From: Hirudinaria manillensis | Lineage: Eukaryota > Annelida > Clitellata > Hirudinida > Hirudinidae | Direction: 5' to 3' | Assembly (NCBI GenBank): GCA_034509925.1 | Contig: CM067529.1 | Coordinates: 13,305,501-13,369,500 of the forward strand | Length of the DNA stretch: 64,000 bases | Shown: positions 26,418 through 55,743 of the stretch, in pieces | Numbering within the stretch: the stretch's first letter is position 1 | How the letters are laid out: every line of letters starts with the position of its first letter | Position numbers and translations under genes: made by a program | Notes under the pieces: generated by a model | What the model saw: the letters and a program-made list of their open reading frames with translations, nothing else | Databases searched by the model: none | Told to the model about the DNA's origin: nothing

Positions 26418-29400
26418 TCAAAGTCGACGACTTTTGTAATAAAGGAAGGACGAAAACATTAAAAGGGTTAGAAATAACAGCAACATGTACAACAAGAAGT
26501 ATTTCTTGCGAGTTTTGCTCTCGTCACCCCAATGCCACAACGTAGTGAAAGAAAAACTCTCTGAAAATTGAAACAATTTTCATTAGAATGCCTGTAAAAT
26601 ATGTAAAATATAATTGATAATGTTTAATCTCGGGTTATACAGCACGAGATTATCGTTTAATTTAGATTATCAATTAAAAATTAATATTTAAAGGTGTTCA
26701 AGATTTTGAATTTATTCGGAATATAATCTCGTATACCTATGCAGGCTTTGTCTTCTAAGCTGACGTATCCAGTTCCACATTTACACTTATATCCTCCAAA
26801 TGAATTGAAGCAAAACTTTTTAAAAAGGCACAATTTTTCATCGATGCATTCATCGATATCTGAAGAAATCATGGAAAAATTATAATGCTGGGTAGCTGCT
26901 TAAGTCCAGGATGAGCAAAACAAGAAAATGGAAAAGCTATTGATGAGATTTGTCATAAATGTGAATAATATTACTGTGAATATATCGCCTAATTAGATAA
27001 ATATTTTAATCTGTTTTAAAAAACCTTTGTTATCGCTATCATCAAATTTCTCCAAAGTATCCTAATTACTAATTAAACTATTTTCTACGAATTTTATGAA
27101 TACTCATACCAATACTCAGAAATTATTAATTAATTAACTTAATTTCATTTCATTTCTGTAAAGTATTTGTACAAATTGGAAAGCATCATTGACCAGTGCA
27201 TGTTCCAGAAGATGTTTCAGTGTAACCAGGTCCGCATGTACATTGGTAAGAGCCAGGAGTATTGAGACAGTATTTTTTCAGGAATTCCTTGCAAGGGTTG
27301 GTACCCATACTACATTCGTCAATGTCTAAGAATTAAGAAAAAATTGCACCTTTATAATACAGAGTTCTTAAATTGTAACTTATAAATTCATATAAATAAC
27401 TACCTAACTATTGCAATTAGACAGAAATAATTCAATACTCGCCAATACAGTTTAGGATGTTATCCATCTTAAAGCCATCCTTGCATTCGCAAATGGATTG
27501 TGTTGATTCAATATCAAACACGTTCTTTTCTCGGCACTTCACCTGTCCACAGTTTCCGTTGTTCAAAGAACAGTCTAAGGCCAATAACCGACGGTTAGAC
27601 TTGTGCCAATATATGCCATGAGATAGAACAGGGGGGGATATTTTTAATTAATTGTAAATATGTGCAATTAGGTTAGAGTTAAGACCAAGGCTTAGTGTTA
27701 GGGTTAGGGTTAGGGTTAGGGTTAGGTTTAGGGTTACGCCTAGGTTTACGGATTGGTTTACGGTTAGGTTTAAGATCTAAGGTTAGGGATAGGGCTAGGG
27801 TTGGGGCTACGGTAAGGGTTAGGCTTAGGGTTAGGGCTTGGGTTAGAGTTAGACTTAAGTTTAAGACCTTGGGCTATGGTATTAAAAGGCGTGTTAGGGT
27901 TAATAATTAAATAAGTTGGAACAAAATATTAATAAGATCATCGGTTCATAACAACTTCCTCTTCTCTTTTCCCAAATAATTTGAAATTTAAGAAATAATA
28001 GATTATATCTGAAAATCACTAATTAGTTTCACCAATTGTTTCACATTTGTATCCTTTTCTGCCTTCTGGACAGATTGAGCATTCGTTTTGTTCGTAGATA
28101 CATTTCCAAGCAGGATTGATCAGATACATATTCTTTTGGAATATTTCTAATAAGTGCAAAAATTTTCAATATTAATTCTTCTGCCCTTTATTTATTAAAA
28201 TCAGAAACCAATGCAAAATATGGTTCCATATAGTAATATTTCGGTTGAATGAATATTTCCTTAAAAACCTTTGATGGTTTCTGCATAATAAACACAAAAT
28301 CAGTAGTTTTGAAACTCTCGCTCGATCGACATCATTAAATCAATTTAAAGAAACTTTTCTTTCTGATTTCGATTAGTTTCATTTTACAATTTTAAATTTG
28401 TTTCTTTTTTTAACCCTACATTGGATCCAACAGCCCTTACTTTGTGAATAGACGCCAAAAACATTCCCCTTCCCACAAAACTGATATCTTATCCCACAAG
28501 TCACGTTGCAATGTACCAAATCGACTTGAAGGAGCGAAGTCAAAGTTGTTACACAAAGGCAATGTTCCTCCTGTTAAAATTTAAATCTATTTAGCTAGGA
28601 AACGTGTAAAACGGACATTTAATACATTTTTCCAAGCAGTGAAAACTGTGAGGGATGCACGTGTTATTTCCATTTACTTCTTTGTTGTTTCGAAAGCAAG
28701 CTTCCGCGGGATTTATAATTTAACTTTAATTCTTTCATTATAATTAACATTCGGTTTGTTGTCTTGTGGTCAGGCTTGTAGCCTGTGCCCTGTTTTTAAT
28801 TGTGTTCATACATTAAATAGTCTATTTTAAATTAAATGAATTTTAATTAAGCATTGCAACTTTGAAAGATTAACCTGTAATACTTTATGTAATAACATAT
28901 AAAAAAAGGTTGATGTATACAAAGGATATAATATATTTTAATAATATACTTATATGAAGATATATTTTCTTGATTGTGATTCAAAACATGATTTATTAAA
29001 AGCTCACCATGTTAAACCCAAAATAAAACGACTTCCGGCATTTTACCGAGCATTCCACAAGCAATGACACAGCGCTCGTTTTTTCTAGATTTCTATTTTT
29101 GAAGCAACCAATGAAATATTCCGCTCTAGTTTCTGAAACTTGACAGCTCTTTGACACTTTTGTGCATGAAGTTGAAAGCATTACAATAGACTTACCATAA
29201 CCTAAAATGTTTATTTTGTCTATTCCACCCCATTTGTCATCTATGACTATAACTCTGCCAAATCTGTTGCAAGCATAACGCTGCTCCTTTCCAGAAATAA
29301 TGAAAGGATCGCATTCTTCAATAACATCCACATATTTGTACAAGAGGATTCTTTTAGATGTTACCTCCGCTTCAAGGAAATCAAATTTCAAATTGGCTAA

Positions 29401-29688
29401 GAAAAGCAGAACAGATATTATTGAAAATAACAATATCTTACTCGTATATGTGATGTAAATGTAGTTTATAAAGTGATGCATCAATAAGTCAATTACTAAT
29501 TTATTCATATTCTTTCCTGCAATTTTACTGAAATTCTTGGTTCTCAAAGATTCCCCGTCTTCCATATAGTAATATTCCGGTTTGACGAATATTTCATATA
29601 AAACGTGTGAAATTCCTTCACGAGATATAAGCAATAAAATTAACATAACAACGTCTGAACAAATTAACAGTTTGATCACTTGTCCCAT
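26418..29688 (-). CDS. WE4: short-form WSC/EGF receptor-like protein, intact copy
   Basis: Nine exons: 29688-29442, 29396-29196, 29132-29008, 28570-28441, 28146-28033, 27574-27443, 27325-27194, 26859-26737, 26560-26418. Phases agree, giving 448 aa. The start is the Met of MGQVIKLLICSD, which directly precedes the signal helix; an in-frame codon 19 positions upstream is less likely. Domains: discoidin-like (about 30-150, including YYYMEDGES and ACNRFGRVIVIDDKWGG), WSC (about 150-234), two EGFs, and two cbEGFs starting DIDEC. TM is at 422-443 and the tail is five residues (KSRRL). Introns 1 and 2 are only 45 and 63 nt and in frame, so the region looks like one 249-codon frame. WE7 and WE8 have stop-bearing introns where intron 2 falls. 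The exon 6 donor is GC. Confidence 0.85.
27669..27900. repeat. Telomere-like (TTAGGG)n tract in WE4
   Basis: Starts with pure gggtta units near 27694 and degenerates to the right. It lies in the intron between EGF exons 5 and 6. The same intron of WE5 and WE6 has a longer, more degenerate version. Confidence 0.85.
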
Positions 29689-30037
29689 GACATAAACTTT
29701 GCTTTCGCGATTAAAGAAGAAATAAATAAACAGAAACGTCACCAATATCCAGTAAATAACGCTTTACGAATGCGACCGTTTCACTAACAACCACACGGAT
29801 AAACCATCTTATGATTCAGTAAAAATTACTTCAAATATTGAAACACACGTACAATATACGTACGTACAACAAACTTTAAATTTATTTCTAATTCAAAATC
29901 ATCCTACTTAATAAGAACAAACACCTCAAAATCAAAACGCAATTCAATTCTGAAGATTTCGAAATCAATCAAACATTTTTTTCCATTTTATTTCCAGAAT
30001 AAACTATGTACAGATTAAACATCATTCATTATATTTA

Positions 30038-30283
<246 letters not shown>

Positions 30284-32247
30284 CTTCTTCTTCTCGGTGT
30301 CTCAGCCGGTGATGAATGAATGCTGAGCACTACCAGTGCTCTCAGCGATTCATCAAAGAACTTTCCGAAGAAATTATTATTATTATTATTACTTATTTAT
30401 TATTATGAGCATCAAGTTGGATGGATAGAAGTTATTCTAAATATTACGGTACCGATGCAGATACATTCCCATTTATTCGGACCAACAATGCTAATGTTTC
30501 TCGTCTAATTGCATAATAGGTGCCATAACAGATTGACTCATCTGAAAACTTATGCCACTTAAGTGATCAACTAATCAATTTGACTATTAACCAAGTAATT
30601 TCCTCAACAAGTTCATTTATTTAAAACTTATCATATTTATTTCATAGGCGAGGATCTGAGATTTTTTGGTAATTATTACAATATTGACGATTTTTGAATT
30701 ATTGTTTATTTTTTGTTTCTATTGTTTATTCAATTGGGATTATACTACTAGTTTATCTTGGCCAAAAAACCATTAGCACGATGAGAAAAGCAACGAAAAG
30801 CTTTGAATTGTTTTTCTTTTATTAATAAACAATTTATTCTTAAAAGGCACTAAATGTTTTAAGCCTTGAATACAATTTCTTAAAGAGCCTAACAATAAGT
30901 GAGTGAGTCCTAGCAATGCTTCAACTTAAATCAAACAATGTAATTAGCCAATAAGTGCTTCTAATCACTTCAAAGTCGACGACTTTTGTAATAAAGGAAG
31001 GACGAAAACATTAAAAGGGTTAGAAATAACAGCAACATGTACAACAAGAAGTATTTCTTGCGAGTTTTGCTCTCGTCACCCCAGTGCCACAACGTAGTGA
31101 AAGAAAAACTCTCTGAAAATTGAAACAATTTTCATTAGAATGCCTGTAAAACATGTAAAATATAATTGATAATGTTTAATCTCGGGTTATACAGCACGAG
31201 ATTATCGTTTAATTTAGATTATCAATTAAAAATTAATATTTAAAGGTGTTCAAGATTTTGAATTTATTCGGAATATAATCTCGTATACCTATGCAGGCTT
31301 TGTCTTCTAAGCTGACGTATCCAGTTCCACATTTACACTTATATCCTCCAAATGAATTGAAGCAAAACTTTTTAAAAAGGCACAATTTTTCATCGATGCA
31401 TTCATCGATATCTGAAGAAAGCATGGAAAAATTATAATGCTGGGTAGCTGCTTAAGTCCAGGATGAGCAAAACAAGAAAATGGAAAAGCTATTGATGAGA
31501 TTTGTCATAAATGTGAATAATATTACTGTGAATATATCCCCTAATTAGATAAATATTTTAAATGCAATTAAAATAAATATTTTAATCTGTTTTAAAACAC
31601 CTTTGTTCTCGCTATCATCAAATTTCTCCAAAGTATCCTAATTCCTAATTAAACTATTTTCTACGAATTTTATGAATACTCATACCAATACTCAGAAATT
31701 ATTAATTAATTAACTTAATTTCATTTCATTTCTGTAAAGTATTTGCACAAATTGGAAAGCATCATTGACCAATGCATGTTCCAGAAATAGTTTCATTGAA
31801 ACCAGGTCCGCATGTACATTGGTAAGAGCCAGGAGTATTGAGACAGTATTTTTTCAGGAAATCCATGCAAGGGTTAGTACCCATACTACATTCGTCAATG
31901 TCTAAGAATTAAGAAAAAAATTGCACCTTTATGATAGACAATTCCTAAATTGTAACTTGTAAATTCATATAAATAACAACCTAACTATTGCAATTATAAA
32001 GAAATAATTCAATACTCGCCAATACAGTTTAGGATGTTATCCATCATAAAGCCATCCTTGCATTCGCAAGTGGATTGTGTTGACTCAATGTCAAAAACGT
32101 TCTTTTCTCTGCACTGCATGTGTCCACAGTTTCCGTTGTTCAAAGAACAGTCTAAGGCCAATAACCGACGGTTAGACTTGTGCCAATATATGCCATATGA
32201 TAGAACAAGGAGGGATATTTATAATTAATTGTAAATATGTGCAATTA

Positions 32248-33787: not shown

Positions 33788-34579
33788 ATATAAAAAAGGT
33801 TGATGTATACAAAGGATATAATATATTTTAATAATATACTTATATGAGGATATATTTTCTTGATTGTGATTCAAAACATGATTTATTAAAAGCTCACCAT
33901 GTTATACCCAAAATAAAACGACTTCCGGCATTTTACCGAACATTCCACAAGCAATGACACAGGGTTCGTTTTTTCTGGATTTCTATTTTTGAAGCATCCA
34001 ATGAAATATTCCGCTCTAGTTTCTGAAACATGACAGCTCTTTGACACTTTCTTGCATGAAGTTGAAAGCATTACAATAGACTTACCATAACCTAAAATGC
34101 TTATTTTGTCTATTCCACCCCATTTGTCATCTATAACTATAACTCTGCCAAATCTGTTGCAAGCATAACGCTGCTCCTTTCCAAAAATTTTGAAAGGATC
34201 GCATTTATCAAAAACGTCCACATATTTGTACAAGAGGATTCTTTTAGATGTTACCTCCGCTTCAAGGAAATCAAATTTCAAATTTGGCTAAGAAAAGCAG
34301 AACGGATGTTATTGAAAATAACAATATCTTACTCGTATATGTGATGTCGATGTAGTTTATAAAGTGATGCATCAATAAGTCAATTACTAATTTATTCATA
34401 TTCTTTCCTGCAATTTTACTGAAATTCTTGGTTCTAAAGGATTCCCCCTCTTCCATATAATAATATTCTGCTTTGATGAATATATCATATAAAAGGTGTG
34501 TATTTCCTTCACGAGATATAAGCAATAAAATTAACATAACAACGTCTGAACAAATTAACAGTTTGATCACTTGTCCCAT

Positions 34580-35358
34580 GACATAAACTTTGCTTTCGCG
34601 ATTAAAGAAGAAATAAATAAACAGAAACGTCACCAACATCCAGTAAATAACGCTTTACGAATGCGACCGTTTCACTAACAACCACACGGATAAACCATCT
34701 TATGATTCAATAAACATTATCTCAAATATTGAAACACACATTATTACTATTATTATTTATTTATTTCTGGAATAACGAATATGGAGATTAAGCATCATGT
34801 ACTTCTATGAGCATCAAGTAGGATGGTCAGAAGTAATTCTAAATGTTACGGCACCGATGGAGATTCTTCCCATTCATTCGGACCACCAATGATAATGTTT
34901 CTCATCTAATTGCATAATAGGTGCCATAACAGATTGACGCATCTGAAAACCTTTTACCACTTAAGTGATCAACTAATCGATTTTACTATTAACCAAATAA
35001 TTTCCTCATCAAGTTTATTTATTTAAAACTTATATTTATTTCATAGTCGAAGATCTGAGATTTTTTGGTAATTATTACAATATAGACGATTTTTGAATTA
35101 TTGTTTTTTTTTTCTATTGTTTTTTGAATTTGGATTATACTACTAGTTTATCTTGGCCAAAAAACTTAGCACGATGAGAAAAGCAACGAAAAGCTTTGAA
35201 TTGTTTTTCTTTTATTAATAAACAATTTGTTCTTAAAAGGCACTAAATGTTTTAAGCCTTGAATCCAATTTCTTAAAGAGCCTAACAATAAATTAGTCCT
35301 AGCAATGCTTCAACTTAAATCAAACAATGTAATTAGCCAATAAGTGCTTCTAATCACT
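34580..35358. other. Intergenic spacer WE5-WE6
   Basis: Copy of the spacer found after WE4 and WE6, with a short ATT run. It includes the junction of units 2 and 3 near 35049. Confidence 0.5.
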
Positions 35359-40025: not shown

Positions 40026-40750
40026 ATATTTTCTTGATTGTGATTCAAAACATGATTTATTAAAAGCTCACCATGTTATAGCCAAAATAAAACGACTTCC
40101 GGCATTTTACCGAACATTCCACAAGCAATGACACAGGGTTCGTTTTTTCTGGATTTCTATTTTTGAAGCATCCAATGAAATATTCCGCTCTAGTTTCTGA
40201 AACATGACAGCTCTTTGACACTTTCGTGCACGAAGTTGAAAGCATTACAACCGACTTACCATAACCATAAATGTTTAATTTGTCTATTCCACCCCATTTG
40301 TTATCTATAACTATAACTCTGCCAAATCTGTTGCAAGCATAACGCTGCTTCTTTACAAAATCAATAGGTCCGCATTCTTCAATAACATCCACATATTTGT
40401 ACAAGAGGATTCTTTTAGATGTTACCTCCGCTTCAAGGAAATCAAATTTCAAATTTGGCTAAGAAAAGCAGAACAGATATTATTGAAAATAACAATATCA
40501 TACTCGTGTATGTGATGTCGATGTAGTTTATAAAGTGATGCATCAATAAGTCAATTACTAATTTATTCATATTCTTTCCTGCAATTTTACTGAAATTCTT
40601 GGTTCTAAAAGGTTCCCCGTCTTCCATATAGTAATATTCCGGTTTGACGAATATTTCATACAAATGCTGTGAATTTCCTTCACGAGATATAAGCAATAAA
40701 ATTAACATAACAACGTCTGAACAAATTAACAGTTTGATCACTTGTCCCAT

Positions 40751-42680
40751 GACATAAACTTTGCTTTCGCGATTAAAGAAGAAATAAATAAACAGAAACG
40801 TCACCAACATCCAGTAAATAACGCTTTACGAATGCGACCGTTTCACTAACAACCACACGGATAAACCATCTTATGATTCAATAAACATTATCTCAAATAT
40901 TGAAACACACATTATTACTATTATTATTTATTTATTTCTGGAATAACGAATATGGAGATTAAGCATCATGTACTTCTATGAGCATCAAGTTGGATGGTCA
41001 GAAGTTATTCTAAATGTTACGGCACCGATGCAGATACATTCCCATTTATTCGGACCAACAATGCTAATGTTTCTCATCTAATTGCATAATAGGTGCCATA
41101 ACAGATTGACGCATCTGAAAACCTTTTACCACTTAAGTGATCAACTAATCAATTTTACTATTAACCAAATAATTTCCTCAACAAGTTCATTTACTTAAAA
41201 CTTATATTTATTTCTTAGGCAATAGTCGAAGGTAACCCCGGTTTGGAAAATAATCATTTATCAATTTTAAAATAATCATATATTAAAACAAAGCCGAGAA
41301 TATTTATTTGAAGATTTTGTATTTATCAAAGTCTTGGAAATATGTGTTTATACAATATCTTTATTTTGGCCTTTTGAACCCATTATGTGGACTATGACTG
41401 AGTCATAGGGAGCCATAGGCTCGCAAGCAGTGACATTGATTTCTTGTTCTGCTGGCTACAATGAACATAAGAAGCAGCATAACATTATATTAATATTATA
41501 ATCACATTATTTGTGTCATTACTACTATTAGTATTTAGTCAGTATTCGATACTAAACTTAGTCGAAAATGACGTGCTTGTTCAAGCGTGCATTGTTTTGC
41601 AGTAAGGAGTTAATTGACATATTTGGTAATGTAGGCACTGCTTTTATGGCAACTACTCTCAAATATGTGCCATTCAATACACTAAAGCACGGAAATGTAC
41701 ACGCGGGTGTACGCATATCCATCATCTGATTAAGTTTTATGAATGTGAATCATTTCGAATTAAAACAAAAATATTTTATGAAGTCCAATAAAAATAGTCA
41801 TAAATACTCGATTGTTTGCGAGGCTCAGAATTCCGTGCATGGTACGTGTATGGGCATCCGCTCCATAACTTAGTGACTATGTTCTCCCAATGGGATTTGG
41901 AGGTTTGAATTGTGGAAGATTAGATCAGATTAGAGCCGACAAACTCAATGAAGTCATAATTGCCTGAAAGCTTTCCATCAGGAATTTCCCAATTGAATTA
42001 TTTTCCAGTGGTCTTGGTTCGCAAACTCCTTGCATACAGGCGTACTCGACGACAAGATTGTATCTCTAGGAATGGATCAATACAAGGGCTGGCTACACCC
42101 TTAGACTAGGTTTGCTTTCGAACAATAGTCAAGGGAGACGGGACTAAAACTCATTTGCATTCTTATCAGGGCATTCTTTCAGATTATTTGCTTCGTTGAT
42201 AAGAGATATGTTAATGAACATTTGATTAAAAAACATTTAACATTTGAAACTCGATTTGCAAAAAAAAAAGGGAAGCCGTTAAATTTTACCTTAGTAGCCT
42301 GAATTATGACCACCTTCAGAATGAATCATTCGCACAATTTGCACATGTTCAAAGTGATCGATGAAGTATTTTATATTTTCGCGTCCTTGTTTTGTGATTT
42401 ACCACTTCAACAACTGCAGTCTCCAGCTGTTCATAATTCTATTAGAATACTTTTAAAATGATTGAATTTGTGGAGCCTTCTGAAATTCCAAAAATTATAA
42501 TAACAATCTCAATAATAATAATTATTATTATTATCATTATCATTATCATTCAAAGCATTTCGTGGCGTCCCTGTCGTTATGGGAAGTTGGTTGTTTAATG
42601 GAGATCAAGGCGTCCTATGGAGACAGCTTGTGAATCATTTCTAAGCAAGGCAAGCAAGCAACGAATGGCCTTAGCAACAA
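40751..42680. other. Intergenic between WE6 and tubulin genes
   Basis: Up to about 41220 this is the unit 3 flank; beyond it is unique AT-rich DNA. Minus-strand WE6 and plus-strand tubulin 1 are divergent, so promoters for both should lie here. A mixed ATT/ATC run is near 42500-42550. Confidence 0.5.
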
Positions 42681-42814: not shown

Positions 42815-44668
<1,854 letters not shown>

Positions 44669-46219: not shown

Positions 46220-48015
<1,796 letters not shown>

Positions 48016-48748: not shown

Positions 48749-51700
48749 ATGGAAAAGTTCAGGAAGATATGCCTTCCTTGCGACCTTCCGCAATGGTCGG
48801 AGATAAAGAAACTCCTCGCCATGACAAGGTCGGCCTCTACGACGGAAGCTTGGATACACCGCTTGCATAAGGCCTACAATGCAGTGCATCTTTCAGGATT
48901 TCATGAAAGTGATGAATCAAAAGGAGCAAAAGTAAATTTATTATTTACTAATTTATTTTTAATAACAGAAACTATTATCTGGGCATCAATTAGAGATTTG
49001 AATTCTGCAACATATTGAGATGTTCAAAGTAGAGGATTTTAAAACTTTTAATGTCCTTCACAAAATTTATCGTGGCTCTGGTCATTTGGTCTGCCAAAAC
49101 AAAGCTCAACATGTCAAAACTGGTTCAAACAAGTCATTTAATTAGAAGCAATATTAGGCTCTGATATTTGTTTTCATTCTTTTACATAAATTAATTCATA
49201 TTTTATGGCACATTAGAATTTTTATGGAACATTAGAATTTTCTTATTTCTTTAACTTTGTACCTAAACATTTATGGCTCTGTGGAATATATGGAATAAAT
49301 TAAAAAATAGTTCCAAAGCAAAAGTAACGAAAGTAATTTCAAGAGTTAAAAGTTAAGAACCAATCACGCTACAACTTAAGTCGTTTGATTATTAACCAGC
49401 CAAGAGACAATGTTAGAATCATTAGTATGCTGTTGATTAACTGATTACTACCTAATTAGTTACAGTCATCCTTGCTCCATTCTTTCTTTCAGCTCAAGTC
49501 ACCAAGTGTCTTCCAGGGTCTTTCCATCTACCTGAACTCCTACCTGTCTGCAGATTCTAGACAGAGATACCTGAATGAACTCCTGCCATTCTTGGTCGAC
49601 AGGGCTCTTCAGATCGAGACTTTCAGTGCAGAATGCGACTTTGTTGTTCCGGGTATTTTCGTTGAACTTGATTTGGACGATTTAGAAATTTCTTGCTCAG
49701 TCATTGCCTGGTTATTTCAACACAGCTTACAATTATCACAATCGACTCTGTTACCTGATAACCGTATCATCATGTGATTGTTTAGCCTATGCAATTTGAG
49801 CTCTCAACATTACTCATAAGATTTAATCTTATGTCGTAACCCTAACAATATCACCCTATCCTTGCCCTAGCATTAACCCCAAACCTAACCCCAATCCATA
49901 ATCTTTACCTTTTTAAAGTTTTCCATTCATTCTCCTTTTATTATTCTGGTCACCATTTACAGACGGAGACACGACCATCGTTCTGACTAGGGCGTGCGCA
50001 TGCTCCCTGCTGGCCTGCTTGGTGCTTTGCATCTTCCCCGATCAGAATAACCTCTCGACCTCCAGGGCGAGGTCGTTCGCATTTGAGGGTCTCTACAAGG
50101 AGATTGCCAGGTTGGCCTCTTTGCTGCCGTAGATCCTGAAATTTTAGTTAATTTTGTTAAATTATAAACTGGAAAATATATGAACAAGTAAATCATGTTC
50201 CATAATTCAACTGTGAGCTAAAAGATCTGTCTCTGAAAGAACCAATTATCTACCATCATTATCTACTGTGATGTCAACATCAACATACAAGCATATAATG
50301 GTATTAATTAATATACCATTGTTTTTAATAATAATAATTAATAATATAATTTTAATTAGCGTAATATGGTATTAATTAATAATATTAATATTAATAATAA
50401 TGAAGTTCTCTTGAACAATTAGTAAGCTCGTTTATTATTTATAGCGACCAGAACTCTGACGTTGGCCTCCAAAAACTCGACTGCATCTTCCAGTATTACG
50501 AACTCGTGTCCAAGAATCTAGTCGACGCTTCAGAGGAAATCATCTTCGTGAGGCAGGTGGGTGGTCCAGGATTTGGAGGTTGTTGCTATTGTTGTTGCTG
50601 TTGTTGTTGTTGTTGTTGTTGTTGTTGATTCTGCTACTAGGTTGATGTTGTTGTCCTTATTTTTGCTGCATTATATGGAGTTAAATGTCAACCACCAGTT
50701 GTTGGAATTTTGCTTTTCGGTTGGAAAATAATGATGGAAAGATAACGTCATCATTGCCAAAATTATCGTCTGCATCATAATCACCATTGCCATCATCTGC
50801 ATCATTATCATCACCACTCCAACGTCTTCATCTTCCTTCTCATCACTTCCAGGTCCTGAAGAACATTCCAGCACTCGAAACGTGGCTCAACTCTCAGCTG
50901 CCTCTGTGCCACCTACAGGTCGTCTGCTCAGAGGTCGACAAAGTCAGGCACAACAAGAGTGGCCACCTGGTGATTAGGATGATGATGATGATGACGATGA
51001 TGATGATTATGACGATGACCATGACTGTTAATGTGTTTGTAATGTTTTGCAGGAATATTGGTTTAAATTCTTTTAAATAATTGATTTTCAATGTAGATAC
51101 TTTTTGGAGAAGAGTCATTTGGATCCCACGTCCTTGGGAAAGGAGGCGACGAGGTTTTGATGATGATGGTTTTGGTGATGATGGTAGTGATGCTGAGAGT
51201 ATCAGTTATTTTTTTTTAATTTAGGTGCTGATAGTGATGTTGGCATTGAATTTATCGTCACAGGTTCACGTCGATCGTGATTTTCTTTTCAGATGGAAAT
51301 CTGTTTTGTCGAGAATCCTGAGCTGATATCTGCGATGGTCTTCTTCGATCCTCACGTGGAAAACGAGGTCGTCATGGTTCGGGGTGCCACTCGGTTCACG
51401 ACCTTTCCTCCCCGACCTTCGACCTCGGGTCTGCACTCGTCTGGAGGGAAAGCCTGGAGATCTCAGGTGATCGATCGATTGATTGATTGTTTGATCGGTC
51501 ATCATGTCATCGGACCCTTATTTGAGATTTTTTCAGGTGTTGGAGTTTGGTATGGGTTTCTCTGCTGACAATTGGCAATTGGCTGTATTTTTGGAAATGT
51601 TGGAAAAACTTTGCGAATTTCAGAAATTTGATTCTGAAACTTCAATCCATCGCTAGAATTTCCACCTTTCTTGACAGTCTGTTGATGTATCACTTATCAT

Positions 51701-54700
51701 TCATTGCATAAGCCCATTACCTCTTTACTATCACTATCATCATCATCATCGTCATCATCGTCGTTGTCTTCATTGCCCTCATCAGCAACCACACGACCAG
51801 CCCACCGTCTGCTGCGCCGTCCTGCCGCACGCCTCTTCCGATCGCAAGAGCTTCGCGTACCGACACAAAACCGTCGTCCGAACGTCAGGAAAGATGCTCT
51901 CCGCTTTCCAGCAACTTTCGATGGACAAATCCAGGTTCGAAGAGGAAGAGGAGGAGGACGACGACGAGGAGGACAGGGCCCTCCCGTCCAAAATGGAAGT
52001 CGACCCTGGTGGGCCAATGATACCTGCCAACGACGGTCTGAAATTTGAACATTGATTTTAAAATCTTTTGTGATTAGTTGTATGATGACTGTTAAATCAA
52101 TTTTAACAAGTCAGAGTTCTAAATTTTTTCTTGAAAGCCAATTACAAATAAACTAAATAATAGATAATTAGTTAGATAGAAATTGGCTAACTTATTGTAG
52201 TCAGAAATAGTATAACCCAGCTTTTTTTGGTTTAGTATTAGATTAGGATTAGGTCCAACACTCTAATTTTGTTGTGGTTAGAGTTACGGCTCTTTGAGCT
52301 CCAACAAGCAGATCCTTACCCCCAATTAATTTGACAAAGCACATTAAACAGTTAAATTAGCAAAAGCTTCTTCGCTAATCCCGACTGAAAATCCCGAACC
52401 TGCGTTCCGTCCTTCAATCCGATCGTTAACTTTGCATCCCCGCAGACACCCGTCCTCCCTCGCTCAGATCCCAGGGAAGCAGAAGGATGCAGCCCTGGAG
52501 GTCCCAGTCATCCACGGGGTCGAGTGGTTCGGTGGATTGGACCAAAGGGACCTTGTCCTTCGAGCTCGAGAGCTCCGTCGACGATCGGAACTCGTCCGCT
52601 TCTTCGGGGTCGTTCGGTGCGATCGGGACGGAGGAAGTTGGTGGATCATCAGGGAGGTTTCGAGGCGTTTGTTTTGTTTTGTTTCATTGTATTTGTCGTT
52701 CACGGCTTTATTTTGTTGCCAAAATGGAATAACGAGTTGTTTGTTGATGGTCATGTAATGATAATGTCGATGATTACTTTTATAATTGCTAGCGACCAAC
52801 AACTAAAACTGGCTTGTCATTCATTTTTTTTTATTATTATTCATTTATTTAAAAAATTATTCATCTAATAATTTAATAATGGTTAATCGACTTTAATCGG
52901 TTCGCCAACTCCGGCCGGTCAAGTTAAGTCGTTTTGATTACGAATATTTAGCAGGAGGAGGAGTTCTGGTCTCCACTCGATAAGCAGGAGAAGTTCTGGT
53001 CTCAGCTACCAACTATCAGAGGAGGGAGGGGCTTATTCCAGGAGGCGGAGTTCGGCCATGAGCGAGACGTCGCAGAAAAGCGGCTTCAGCACCAGTAGCA
53101 GTAGCAGCAGTGAGATTTCTGTTTAAATTTCAAAAAATTATTCATTGATTATTATTCTTAAGTTTAAAAATTAAATTAATGTAATTAACGTTAATACGGC
53201 TTTTTGTCAGACTGTTTCCAATTCCTTTTTTCAGTATTTCAGTCTATTTTTTCATTCCAAATCATATCAGTGGAAACTATTTTATTATTAATTATTTTTA
53301 AAGATTGTTTTTTTGTAATTTGACTCCATTGAATGCTTTTAGGCGGAAAGCGAAGTTCGACGGATTACAGCTCCGAAATGGAGGAATACTTTGACTCCTT
53401 CCAGAAGAGGATCAGTATCAAAACCTCGGTGATCGAGGAGGAAACTTCCGGGCTTCTAGAGGAGCAGGGAAAGTCGACCCGCGGCGCGACGAAAGAAAAG
53501 TCCGAGGATCAAGCGAGACGCCGGCAGGTGCTCCCCTCTCAGCGATCGCTGAGGCGTTTCGTGGGGGATCAGCCCCCGGACGCGGTCAGGCCGACCCCCG
53601 TCAAGTACTCGAGCCTCGATTTGCCGATGATGGCCGTCGACAATTTCACCGACAATTTGATCAACCAAGTGGCTCAAGATTCCAGGGAGGAGATTGCTAA
53701 GATGGTCGCCAAGGAATCGGAGCGGAGGAGGATTCGAACCCAAGACCTCCAGCGCGAAAGGGTTCTTCTCGGACCTCCTAAGTTCCTGAGGCGTGGACAC
53801 AGTGCTGACCTTTTCAATTTCAAGACCAAAGAGGTAAGATGTTCTGTTCCAATTTTTGAGGAAAGCATCAGTTTGATTTGTTTGTTGTAATATATATTAT
53901 TATTAATATACTGTATGTAATACATATTATTATTAATATACTATATATAATACATATTATTATTTATATACTAATACTGTATGTCATTATTGTTACCATT
54001 GTACAAGATCATTGCAATATTCAACACGAGATAAACATGAATTTTCCCAATCTCAGATTTACAGAAAACCCAAACAAACCTCTCCGAGGTGGGGAAGTTC
54101 AGTCGAGAAGTTCGCAGATGCAGTTTCGAGATGCATCGTCGCCTCTGCAATCTCCGAGATGATGGAAAAGGTCAATAGCAGAGGAGAAGGAGGAGCCAGA
54201 GGTTCGAGCTCCATTGCCTACGAAACGCCAAAGTCTTTGGAGGAATTTGCAGGCTCCTTCGTCGAGGGCATCTTCGGGGAGGCCTTTGCGATCGTGGGGG
54301 GACGGGACGAGTCCTCGGGTCGCCCCCGGGTTTCGAAAGCCGAGCGGAGACGGAGAGGTTTCTTCGTCGATGAGAGGCAGCTGAAGGTCTACAGAAGGAA
54401 GGAGGGGGACAAGAGGCACGTCTGCACCGGGTCGATCTGCTTTGAAGAGGAAGAAGACGACTACGAAGATTTCGAGGAGGAAGACGACGACGACGACGAG
54501 TGCGTACGAGCCGAGAAGGCAGAAGGCGCATTCTCGAGCAGAGGAGCCGTCGTTCCGTCCAGGCCGATTGGTCGAAGTCTGTCGTCGGGTTTCAGAGATC
54601 CGGTGCTGTCGGATTTCGAGGACCTTCTCGTCCGCAGCTGCATCAACAGCCCAGGGAGGATTGCGTTCGCTTCCGGAGAGGGTTCCGCCTGCGGAGGGAA

Positions 54701-55743
54701 CGAGGGAACCGTACGACCGGAAAGGTCGCAGAGGAAACCGTGGGAAGCGGAAGTGGCGGCCGTCTGTTCCGGGTGGTTTACCGGGACCTCGGGAGGCGGT
54801 CCGTACGACGGCTATGCGGAGCGTTTTGTGGCGGAGATCTTCCGGAGCGCCGTGTGCCAGCTGCTCGACGGCCAGACGACGACGTCTGCTTCTCGTCCCT
54901 CTCTCGGCTTCGGAGCGTCCTGGCAGACGTCGGTAGACGATTACGCGGCGAACCTCGTCCAGTGCATCTTGGAGGGGGTGACGATCGACCTGGAAAGGAG
55001 GACGGCATCCTCTGTCGGCGCGGTGGGTCCTCGTGGACCCTCAGACATGAAGGCGCTCGCCATGGGCAAAGAAGATGTGAGTGATTGGTTTCCATTGAAC
55101 TTGTTAGACCGTCAATGAGCTTCATTTTCAGTGGTCCGTTGGACTAGGAGATCCGGCCCTCGTTGGTCACTACAGGGTCGGTATCTACGGAGACGACCCG
55201 GAAATTCAGGCCCTACTCTACTGGTTGTGTGCCTCCTACATGGGTCTGCCATCGCTCGTTTATTATTCTCACGGAAACGTGCAGATGAACAGGGTGAGCA
55301 TTGGCTCGGCATCCCTTTAGATCCGTCGAAATTCTGCTTTTGATTTTTAAAGTTTGGAATCGATTTTTGTTTTGGTCGTTCTGTAGAATGTAGATTATGT
55401 TCTTGCTTTAATTATCCTCTGGATGGCCTTATATCTTGATAAAAGAAAGAAAATTAGACAATAAACCATTTAAAAATTTTCAACCAAGGATTAGATTTTA
55501 AAACCACATAACATTTGATGATTATAATTAAGATTATAATTGACTTATTATAGACATTAATATGCTGTTCGTTCGTTTCCCTCTTAGCTTTCCCTCCTGG
55601 CAGAAGCGGTGCTGTCGCGTGATTGGTCGATTGGAACCCTCTTCTCCGAGCTGCTGCTGTGGTGTTCCACCCGAGTAGACCAATCGCAGGGCAGCATCAT
55701 GGAAGGTCTCATCGACTTTCTGTTGCTCAGGAGACTGAAGTGA
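48749..55743 (+). CDS. PARG-fold pseudoenzyme with AKAP11/SPHKAP-like insert
   Basis: Fourteen exons: 48749-48931, 49493-49652, 49963-50128, 50445-50556, 50853-50969, 51097-51153, 51293-51466, 51786-52035, 52446-52656, 52952-53109, 53343-53833, 54057-55076, 55132-55293, 55588-55743. All phases agree, giving 1138 aa from the first in-frame ATG; an upstream exon is possible. Residues 1-323 follow the PARG catalytic domain: KICLPC, the helical SLLACLVLCIFP segment, VENPELISAMVFF. Residues 1034-1138 match its end (VGIYGDDPEIQALLYWLCAS, WSIGTLFSELLL). The signature GGG...QEE is GSH...EME (exon 6/7), so catalysis is probably lost. Residues about 407-1033 are a Ser- and Glu/Asp-rich insert with three basophilic RRxS clusters, a FFAT-like EYFDSFQ (544-550) and amphipathic helices near 628-651, 709-730, 754-770, 946-963 and 986-1004. 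Likely a PKA scaffold at VAP-marked ER; function inferred. Confidence 0.75.
50581..50629. repeat. (TTG)n microsatellite in intron
   Basis: GTT/TTG run in intron 4 of the PARG-like gene. Confidence 0.9.
50979..51032. repeat. (GAT)n microsatellite in intron
   Basis: Imperfect GAT/GAC run directly after the exon 5 donor. It would read as poly-Met or poly-Asp if the intron were missed. Confidence 0.85.

Follow-up and report, generated by a model that had tools for sequence, protein, structure and literature searches.

A protein of the annelid Hirudinaria manillensis that is probably a PARG-derived pseudoenzyme with an AKAP11/SPHKAP-type scaffold inside its macro domain

What kind of protein does a gene encode when both of its ends resemble poly(ADP-ribose) glycohydrolase (PARG) and a long stretch of other sequence lies between them? 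The question is raised by a 64,000-nucleotide stretch of the Hirudinaria manillensis genome (GenBank assembly GCA_034509925.1, contig CM067529.1, positions 13,305,501 to 13,369,500, forward strand; hereafter, the window), in which a sequence-only reading had proposed a scaffold resembling AKAP11 and SPHKAP built on a dead PARG fold. With a probability of roughly 70%, we favour a scaffold of the AKAP11/SPHKAP type, a pseudoenzyme descended from PARG, that keeps the whole PARG domain and holds a PKA- and VAP-binding scaffold inside the macro domain. The gene was modelled by hand on the + strand of the window as 14 exons at 48749..55743, with the ATG at 48749 and the stop codon ending at 55743, and is predicted to be a single gene with PARG-like ends and an insert. 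Each of the 13 introns begins with GT and ends with AG, and no stop codon interrupts the frame; since the exon bounds were picked to preserve the frame, neither property is independent proof of the model, which we take to be right because its product matches PARG over several splice junctions. Locus and exon number are those first proposed, and the product of 1,131 amino acids (aa) replaces the 1,138 aa claimed earlier, a difference of a few residues of splicing. A second possible acceptor lies a few bases upstream of the start of exon 10.

Pfam searches of the whole protein revealed both catalytic-region domains of eukaryotic PARG: PARG_cat_N (PF20811, helical domain; aa 80-188, E 3.9e-14, 53.3 bits against a cut-off of 25.6), which bears out the helical region expected at the N-terminal end, and PARG_cat_C (PF05028, macro domain; E 6.3e-13, 49.2 bits against a cut-off of 26.3). 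The latter was matched in two stretches, the best of them covering aa 210-363 and profile positions 2-155 of 207. Taken alone, the C-terminal 105 aa gave weak matches to PARG_cat_C (profile 168-206, E 0.014) and to residues 468-562 of the PARG in PDB entry 8adj (E 0.031), and they fill profile positions that are absent from the N-terminal half. With the insert omitted, a single PARG_cat_C alignment extends over positions 2-205 of 207 (E 9.3e-16, 58.5 bits), so the two halves complement each other and follow the order of the profile. All of the insert falls into a single gap, between profile position 155 and about 168, immediately ahead of the ligand loop, which in PARG reads GNWGCGAFGG.

Searches of the PDB gave the same picture. 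At E up to 10, the joined halves hit 15 distinct sequences, every one of them named PARG (best 8adj, E 6e-14), and the N-terminal half alone (297 aa) gave 17 matches, 15 to PARG (best E 9.3e-9) and 2 to unrelated proteins (E 0.98 and 1.9). The PARG alignments start at aa 68-86. The first ~67 residues have no PARG support in the searches, and the first 108 aa alone returned no PARG from the PDB, the only match being a weak one to a lipoxygenase (E 0.06). The earlier assignment of residues 1-323 and the last 105 to PARG is therefore correct as to similarity, with a start that was over-generous and an N-terminal part that ends at about aa 363. Identity is 23.8% to the genome's own PARG, 25.0% to 8adj and 23.6% to 4n9y (the last two we take to be the fly and mammalian enzymes), three sequences that are 42.0-50.3% identical to one another in the same alignment. 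The protein has both domains, each largely complete, in the order seen in these and other eukaryotic PARGs; it differs from them in its altered active-site residues and in an insert of ~660 aa within the macro domain. That it descends from PARG is almost certain.

A signature-intact PARG (VDFAN, GGG, QEE) is encoded elsewhere in the genome, on the minus strand of contig C10 at about 7487586-7490872, and was modelled as 12 exons with the 5' part left out. One intron lies at the same place and in the same phase in this gene and in the window gene (between aa 240 and 241 of the window protein). When the 11 introns of the PARG were compared with the 9 window-gene introns that lie outside the insert (the other 4 of the 13 lie within it), this was the 1 position to coincide exactly; with a chance probability of about 0.07, the coincidence is suggestive of descent and no more. 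When the joined protein was searched against the genome, 10 of the 12 matches fell on the window gene and 2 weak ones on contig C1 (E 0.19, 38% identity), so that no second close copy emerged; since the C10 PARG was missed as well, distant copies may have escaped this search. A weak PARG_cat_N match at 9353414-9353647 of contig C9 (E 0.27), interrupted by one in-frame TGA, may be chance or a remnant.

The active site is degenerate. In an alignment with the genome's PARG, 8adj and 4n9y, the signature stretch of 8adj falls on L-ILFGEESFGSHVLGKGGDEMEICF in the window protein: the motif Asp is replaced by Leu (D242L), the Asn by Glu (N245E), GGG by GSH and the first catalytic Glu by Met, and the second Glu (E261) is kept, so that the GGG-X(6-8)-QEE signature and the motif Asp and Asn of active PARG are lost. 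The block is free of gaps from ILFGEESFG to MEICF, with a single gap immediately ahead; the gap-free block and its substitutions had been described by the sequence-only reading and recur in both the PDB and the three-PARG alignments. Among 123 columns invariant over the three PARGs, the window protein keeps 45 and is gapped in 5, distributed as 17/35 in aa 80-209, 3/6 in 210-238, 9/18 in 239-265, 5/12 in 266-292, 6/24 in 293-370 and 5/23 in the C-terminal half, which holds the ligand loop. In that loop (ATGNWGCGAF-G, aa 1036-1047), 2 of 11 invariant positions are kept. The column of the first catalytic Glu lies outside the 123, 4n9y having Gln there. Further changed positions are G250S, G251H, Y300R, N1039H, G1041R, C1042V, F1045Y and G1047D; in PARG structures, the changed residues are catalytic, ADP-ribose-binding or otherwise site-lining ones. 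Judged by these residues, PARG catalysis has very probably been lost.

A link between PARG and AKAPs, which the sequence-only reading had thought undescribed, is already in the literature. The C-termini of AKAP3, AKAP4, AKAP11 and SPHKAP are reported as homologous to the PARG macro domain, the N-terminal PARG portion appearing to be lost in the human AKAPs (PMC11377751, Nat Commun 2024). Consistent with this, of the 27 templates given for AKAP3 in a Robetta modelling run (PMC8901789), 5 (3uek, 6hmk, 6o9y, 6oa0 and 6oa3) are PARG entries according to the PDB matches of our N-terminal half. The PARG-like C-terminal segment of the published family is present in the window protein, which, unlike the human members as published, also keeps the helical domain and the first part of the macro domain. 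Judged by titles and the opening lines of abstracts, PMC11377751 was the one relevant paper that literature searches returned, and a family member keeping the N-terminal PARG portion was not found described in the literature covered, which took in few subscription papers and no bioRxiv preprints; neither a residue-level map of the AKAP11 N-terminus nor an invertebrate AKAP11 appeared in the portions of the AKAP literature examined. The addition to the published link is a probable homologue in which the N-terminal PARG part is kept and the scaffold lies inside the domain. For the non-enzymatic use of a dead ADP-ribosylation-enzyme fold there is also the example of the pseudo-PARPs TASOR and TASOR2, which differ in deriving from PARP, not PARG, and whose description includes no PKA anchoring (PMC11377751).

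The insert contains candidate features of such a scaffold. Preceded by a stretch of Ser and acidic residues, the FFAT-like core EYFDSFQ, a predicted VAP-binding motif, resembles the EFFDSFD of human AKAP11, which has the flank SDSEVS and gives moderate targeting via VAP (PMC3261905). The common letters, 5 of 7, include Ser5 and Phe6, and agreement at 5 or more positions was reached by 28/2000 shuffled inserts and 43/2000 shuffled whole proteins. AKAP11 is described as a paralogue of SPHKAP, and each of the two can bind a pair of PKA holoenzymes; a phospho-FFAT motif of SPHKAP is required for co-localisation with VAP (PMC10460453). Like AKAP11, SPHKAP, AKAP3 and AKAP4, the window protein has candidate amphipathic PKA-docking helices in its long middle part: the insert contains 3 matches to the docking-helix consensus against 0.35 expected, a number reached by 38/5000 shuffles. 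This consensus is the one known from the AKAP literature. Two more candidate helices were noticed by eye and fail the strict consensus. The best-scoring pair of an internal-repeat search consists of two of the candidate helices, but the search lay within the shuffle range and gave no support to internal repeats as their source. The [FY]A patterns devised after the helices had been viewed (0/500 and 0/5000 shuffles) are circular and were not used.

The window protein could instead be an independent PARG paralogue with a long insert, unrelated to AKAPs, in which FFAT and helix patterns occur by chance, and a number of results weigh on that side or against the scaffold reading. The AKAP_110 profile matched the isolated C-terminus alone (positions 609-677 of 690, E 0.38, 9.4 bits against a cut-off of 25) and was absent from the Pfam results for the full protein, the last 262 aa and the joined halves; the C-terminus of the C10 PARG matched it slightly better (590-641, E 0.13) and in the same register. 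The docking-helix consensus is unspecific, having 7 matches in the protein with 4 inside the PARG-like part, and the unbiased internal-repeat search did no better than shuffles (best 35; mean 32.7, 95th percentile 40). Three residues of EYFDSFQ are not those of an optimal FFAT motif (Tyr at position 2, Ser at 5, Gln at 7), and an FFAT pattern with 1 match (1/500 shuffled proteins) was devised knowing the sequence, with Gln permitted at position 7. A SPHKAP-type phospho-FFAT pattern had a single match, which lies at aa 77 and not in the insert (109/500 shuffles reach 1). RVxF (PP1), LC3-interacting region (LIR) and RRxS motifs were no commoner than chance in shuffle tests; for RRxS, 3 were observed against a shuffle mean of 1.3, and 70/500 shuffles reach 3, which is not significant. 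Against an unrelated pseudoenzyme stand the similarity of the FFAT core to that of AKAP11, the excess of docking-helix matches in the insert and the behaviour of the C-terminus once its ligand loop is trimmed: the remaining 82 aa of the window protein match AKAP_110 only (E 0.37), whereas the corresponding 86 aa of the C10 PARG match PARG_cat_C only (8.8e-8). Control C-termini of 8adj and 4n9y gave no AKAP_110 match and three shuffled C-termini no match at all. These controls support a general link between PARG and AKAP_110, and weakly suggest an AKAP-like character for the window C-terminus. A genome-wide AKAP_110 probe gave no match and is uninformative, since 14 control genomes gave none either. 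The sequence collections, made up of genomes of prokaryotes, phages and plasmids together with viral contigs, gave no sight of orthologues in other eukaryotes; in a scan of the viral contigs for relatives, 3 stretches fitted the pattern and 0 were confirmed. Overall, the proposed AKAP11/SPHKAP identity has moderate support from FFAT-like core, docking-helix pattern and architecture, with an AKAP_110 match that is in register but below the cut-off; we consider membership in the AKAP family probable and an unrelated pseudoenzyme unlikely.

Compatible with the scaffold reading is a protein that reads poly(ADP-ribose) (PAR), its dead PARG fold binding ADP-ribose and bringing PKA to PARylated proteins. 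PARG homology along the macro domain and the retained second Glu of QEE speak for it, and PMC11377751 suggests this role for the human AKAPs, reporting good conservation of the residues that contact PAR. In the window protein, by contrast, which in this respect also sits less well with the published family, the presumed site-lining residues are altered at the ten numbered positions given above and the ligand loop is largely changed, which makes a reader doubtful here. More improbable still is an annotation artefact in which two distinct genes, the upstream one a fragment of PARG, were fused in a model that is hand-set and drawn from genomic sequence alone. Exon 8 (aa 318-400) is PARG-like to aa 363 and then continues into the acidic beginning of the insert, which places the N-terminal half and the insert within a single gene; exon 13 follows exon 12 after 55 bases in phase 0, and the C-terminal piece resumes the profile soon after the N-terminal piece ends. 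A catalytically active, diverged PARG, to which the retained E261 might point, is hardly credible given the Met at the first catalytic Glu, the changes in GGG and at the motif Asp and the signature-intact PARG elsewhere in the genome.

Table 1. Positions of the gene's exons, domains and candidate motifs, numbered from the first letter of the window.
Feature	Position	Strand	Remarks
Coding exons 1-5	48749-48931, 49493-49652, 49963-50110, 50445-50556, 50853-50969	+	
Coding exons 6-10	51097-51153, 51293-51466, 51786-52035, 52446-52656, 52955-53109	+	
Coding exons 11-14	53343-53833, 54057-55076, 55132-55293, 55588-55743	+	
PARG helical domain, aa 80-188	49547..50517	+	exons 2-4; PF20811 profile 2-108 of 118
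PARG macro domain, first part, aa 210-363	50877..51923	+	exons 5-8; PF05028 profile 2-155 of 207
Degenerate PARG signature block, about aa 240-265	50967..51310	+	D242L, N245E, GGG to GSH, QEE to EME
Scaffold insert, aa 364-1026 (~660 aa)	51924..55076	+	between PARG_cat_C profile 155 and about 168
Three RRxS (PKA-type) sites, aa 471, 482, 500	52955..53051	+	at chance level
FFAT-like core EYFDSFQ, aa 537-543, predicted VAP-binding	53384..53404	+	5/7 letters as in human AKAP11 EFFDSFD
Candidate amphipathic helix FTDNLINQV..., aa 621-648	53636..53719	+	by eye and post hoc pattern; fails strict consensus
Candidate amphipathic helix FADAVSRCIVASAISEMM, aa 700-727	54096..54179	+	by eye; fails strict consensus
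PKA-docking-helix consensus match, aa 746-768	54234..54302	+	pattern scan
PKA-docking-helix consensus match, aa 935-959	54801..54875	+	pattern scan
PKA-docking-helix consensus match, aa 978-1000	54930..54998	+	pattern scan
PARG domain, last part, aa 1027-1131	55132..55743	+	exons 13-14; PF05028 168-206; weak AKAP_110 match too

Elsewhere in the window, two tandem tubulin genes lie in the same orientation (43523-44668 and 46879-48015), and on inspection by eye their open reading frames (ORFs) appear identical throughout the ~378 aa in common. Three tandem copies of an uncharacterised sequence occupy the minus strand at 28996-29763, 33886-34654 and 40060-40825, the first as one 255-aa ORF and each of the others as a pair of overlapping ORFs; of all these ORFs, the ones at 28996 and 33886 were scanned and had no Pfam match at E 0.01. 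A long trinucleotide array at 30022-30396 on the minus strand reads as poly-Asn in one frame, and the ORF at 505-909 matches a PAN domain barely over the cut-off (21.9 against 21.4 bits; E 1.6e-4).

If the scaffold reading is correct, the N-terminal ~360 and C-terminal ~105 residues would fold jointly as one PARG helical-plus-macro domain unable to hydrolyse PAR, from which the ~660-aa insert, presumably flexible, would exit at a single loop. The FFAT-like motif of the insert is predicted to bind VAP on the endoplasmic reticulum (ER) and several of its amphipathic helices to dock dimers of PKA regulatory subunits; with both interactions in place, the protein would anchor PKA at contact sites of the ER. 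The domains required of its partners are encoded in the genome, with 7 matches to RIIa docking domains and 5 to MSP/VAP-type domains, matches that do not by themselves identify the owner protein of each.

On a wider view, to which we give about even odds, AKAP11, SPHKAP, AKAP3 and AKAP4 would have arisen as a disordered PKA/VAP scaffold grew within a duplicated PARG macro domain, so that the two halves pair and the scaffold is looped out; the N-terminal part is kept here and may survive unrecognised in human AKAP11. The published N-terminal loss would then be true of some members at most, or the N-terminal half would be too diverged for the methods used. Truncating variants of AKAP11 are tied to bipolar disorder and schizophrenia (PMC11952666), and a full high-resolution structure of AKAP11 does not exist according to a 2026 review (PMC13303681). 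If, in the AKAP11 family, a scaffold interrupts a PARG domain, both termini may make one folded unit, which truncations would destroy and for which the PARG structure could guide mutagenesis, and the family would be a clear example of an enzyme turned into a signalling scaffold by growth of an insert within its fold.

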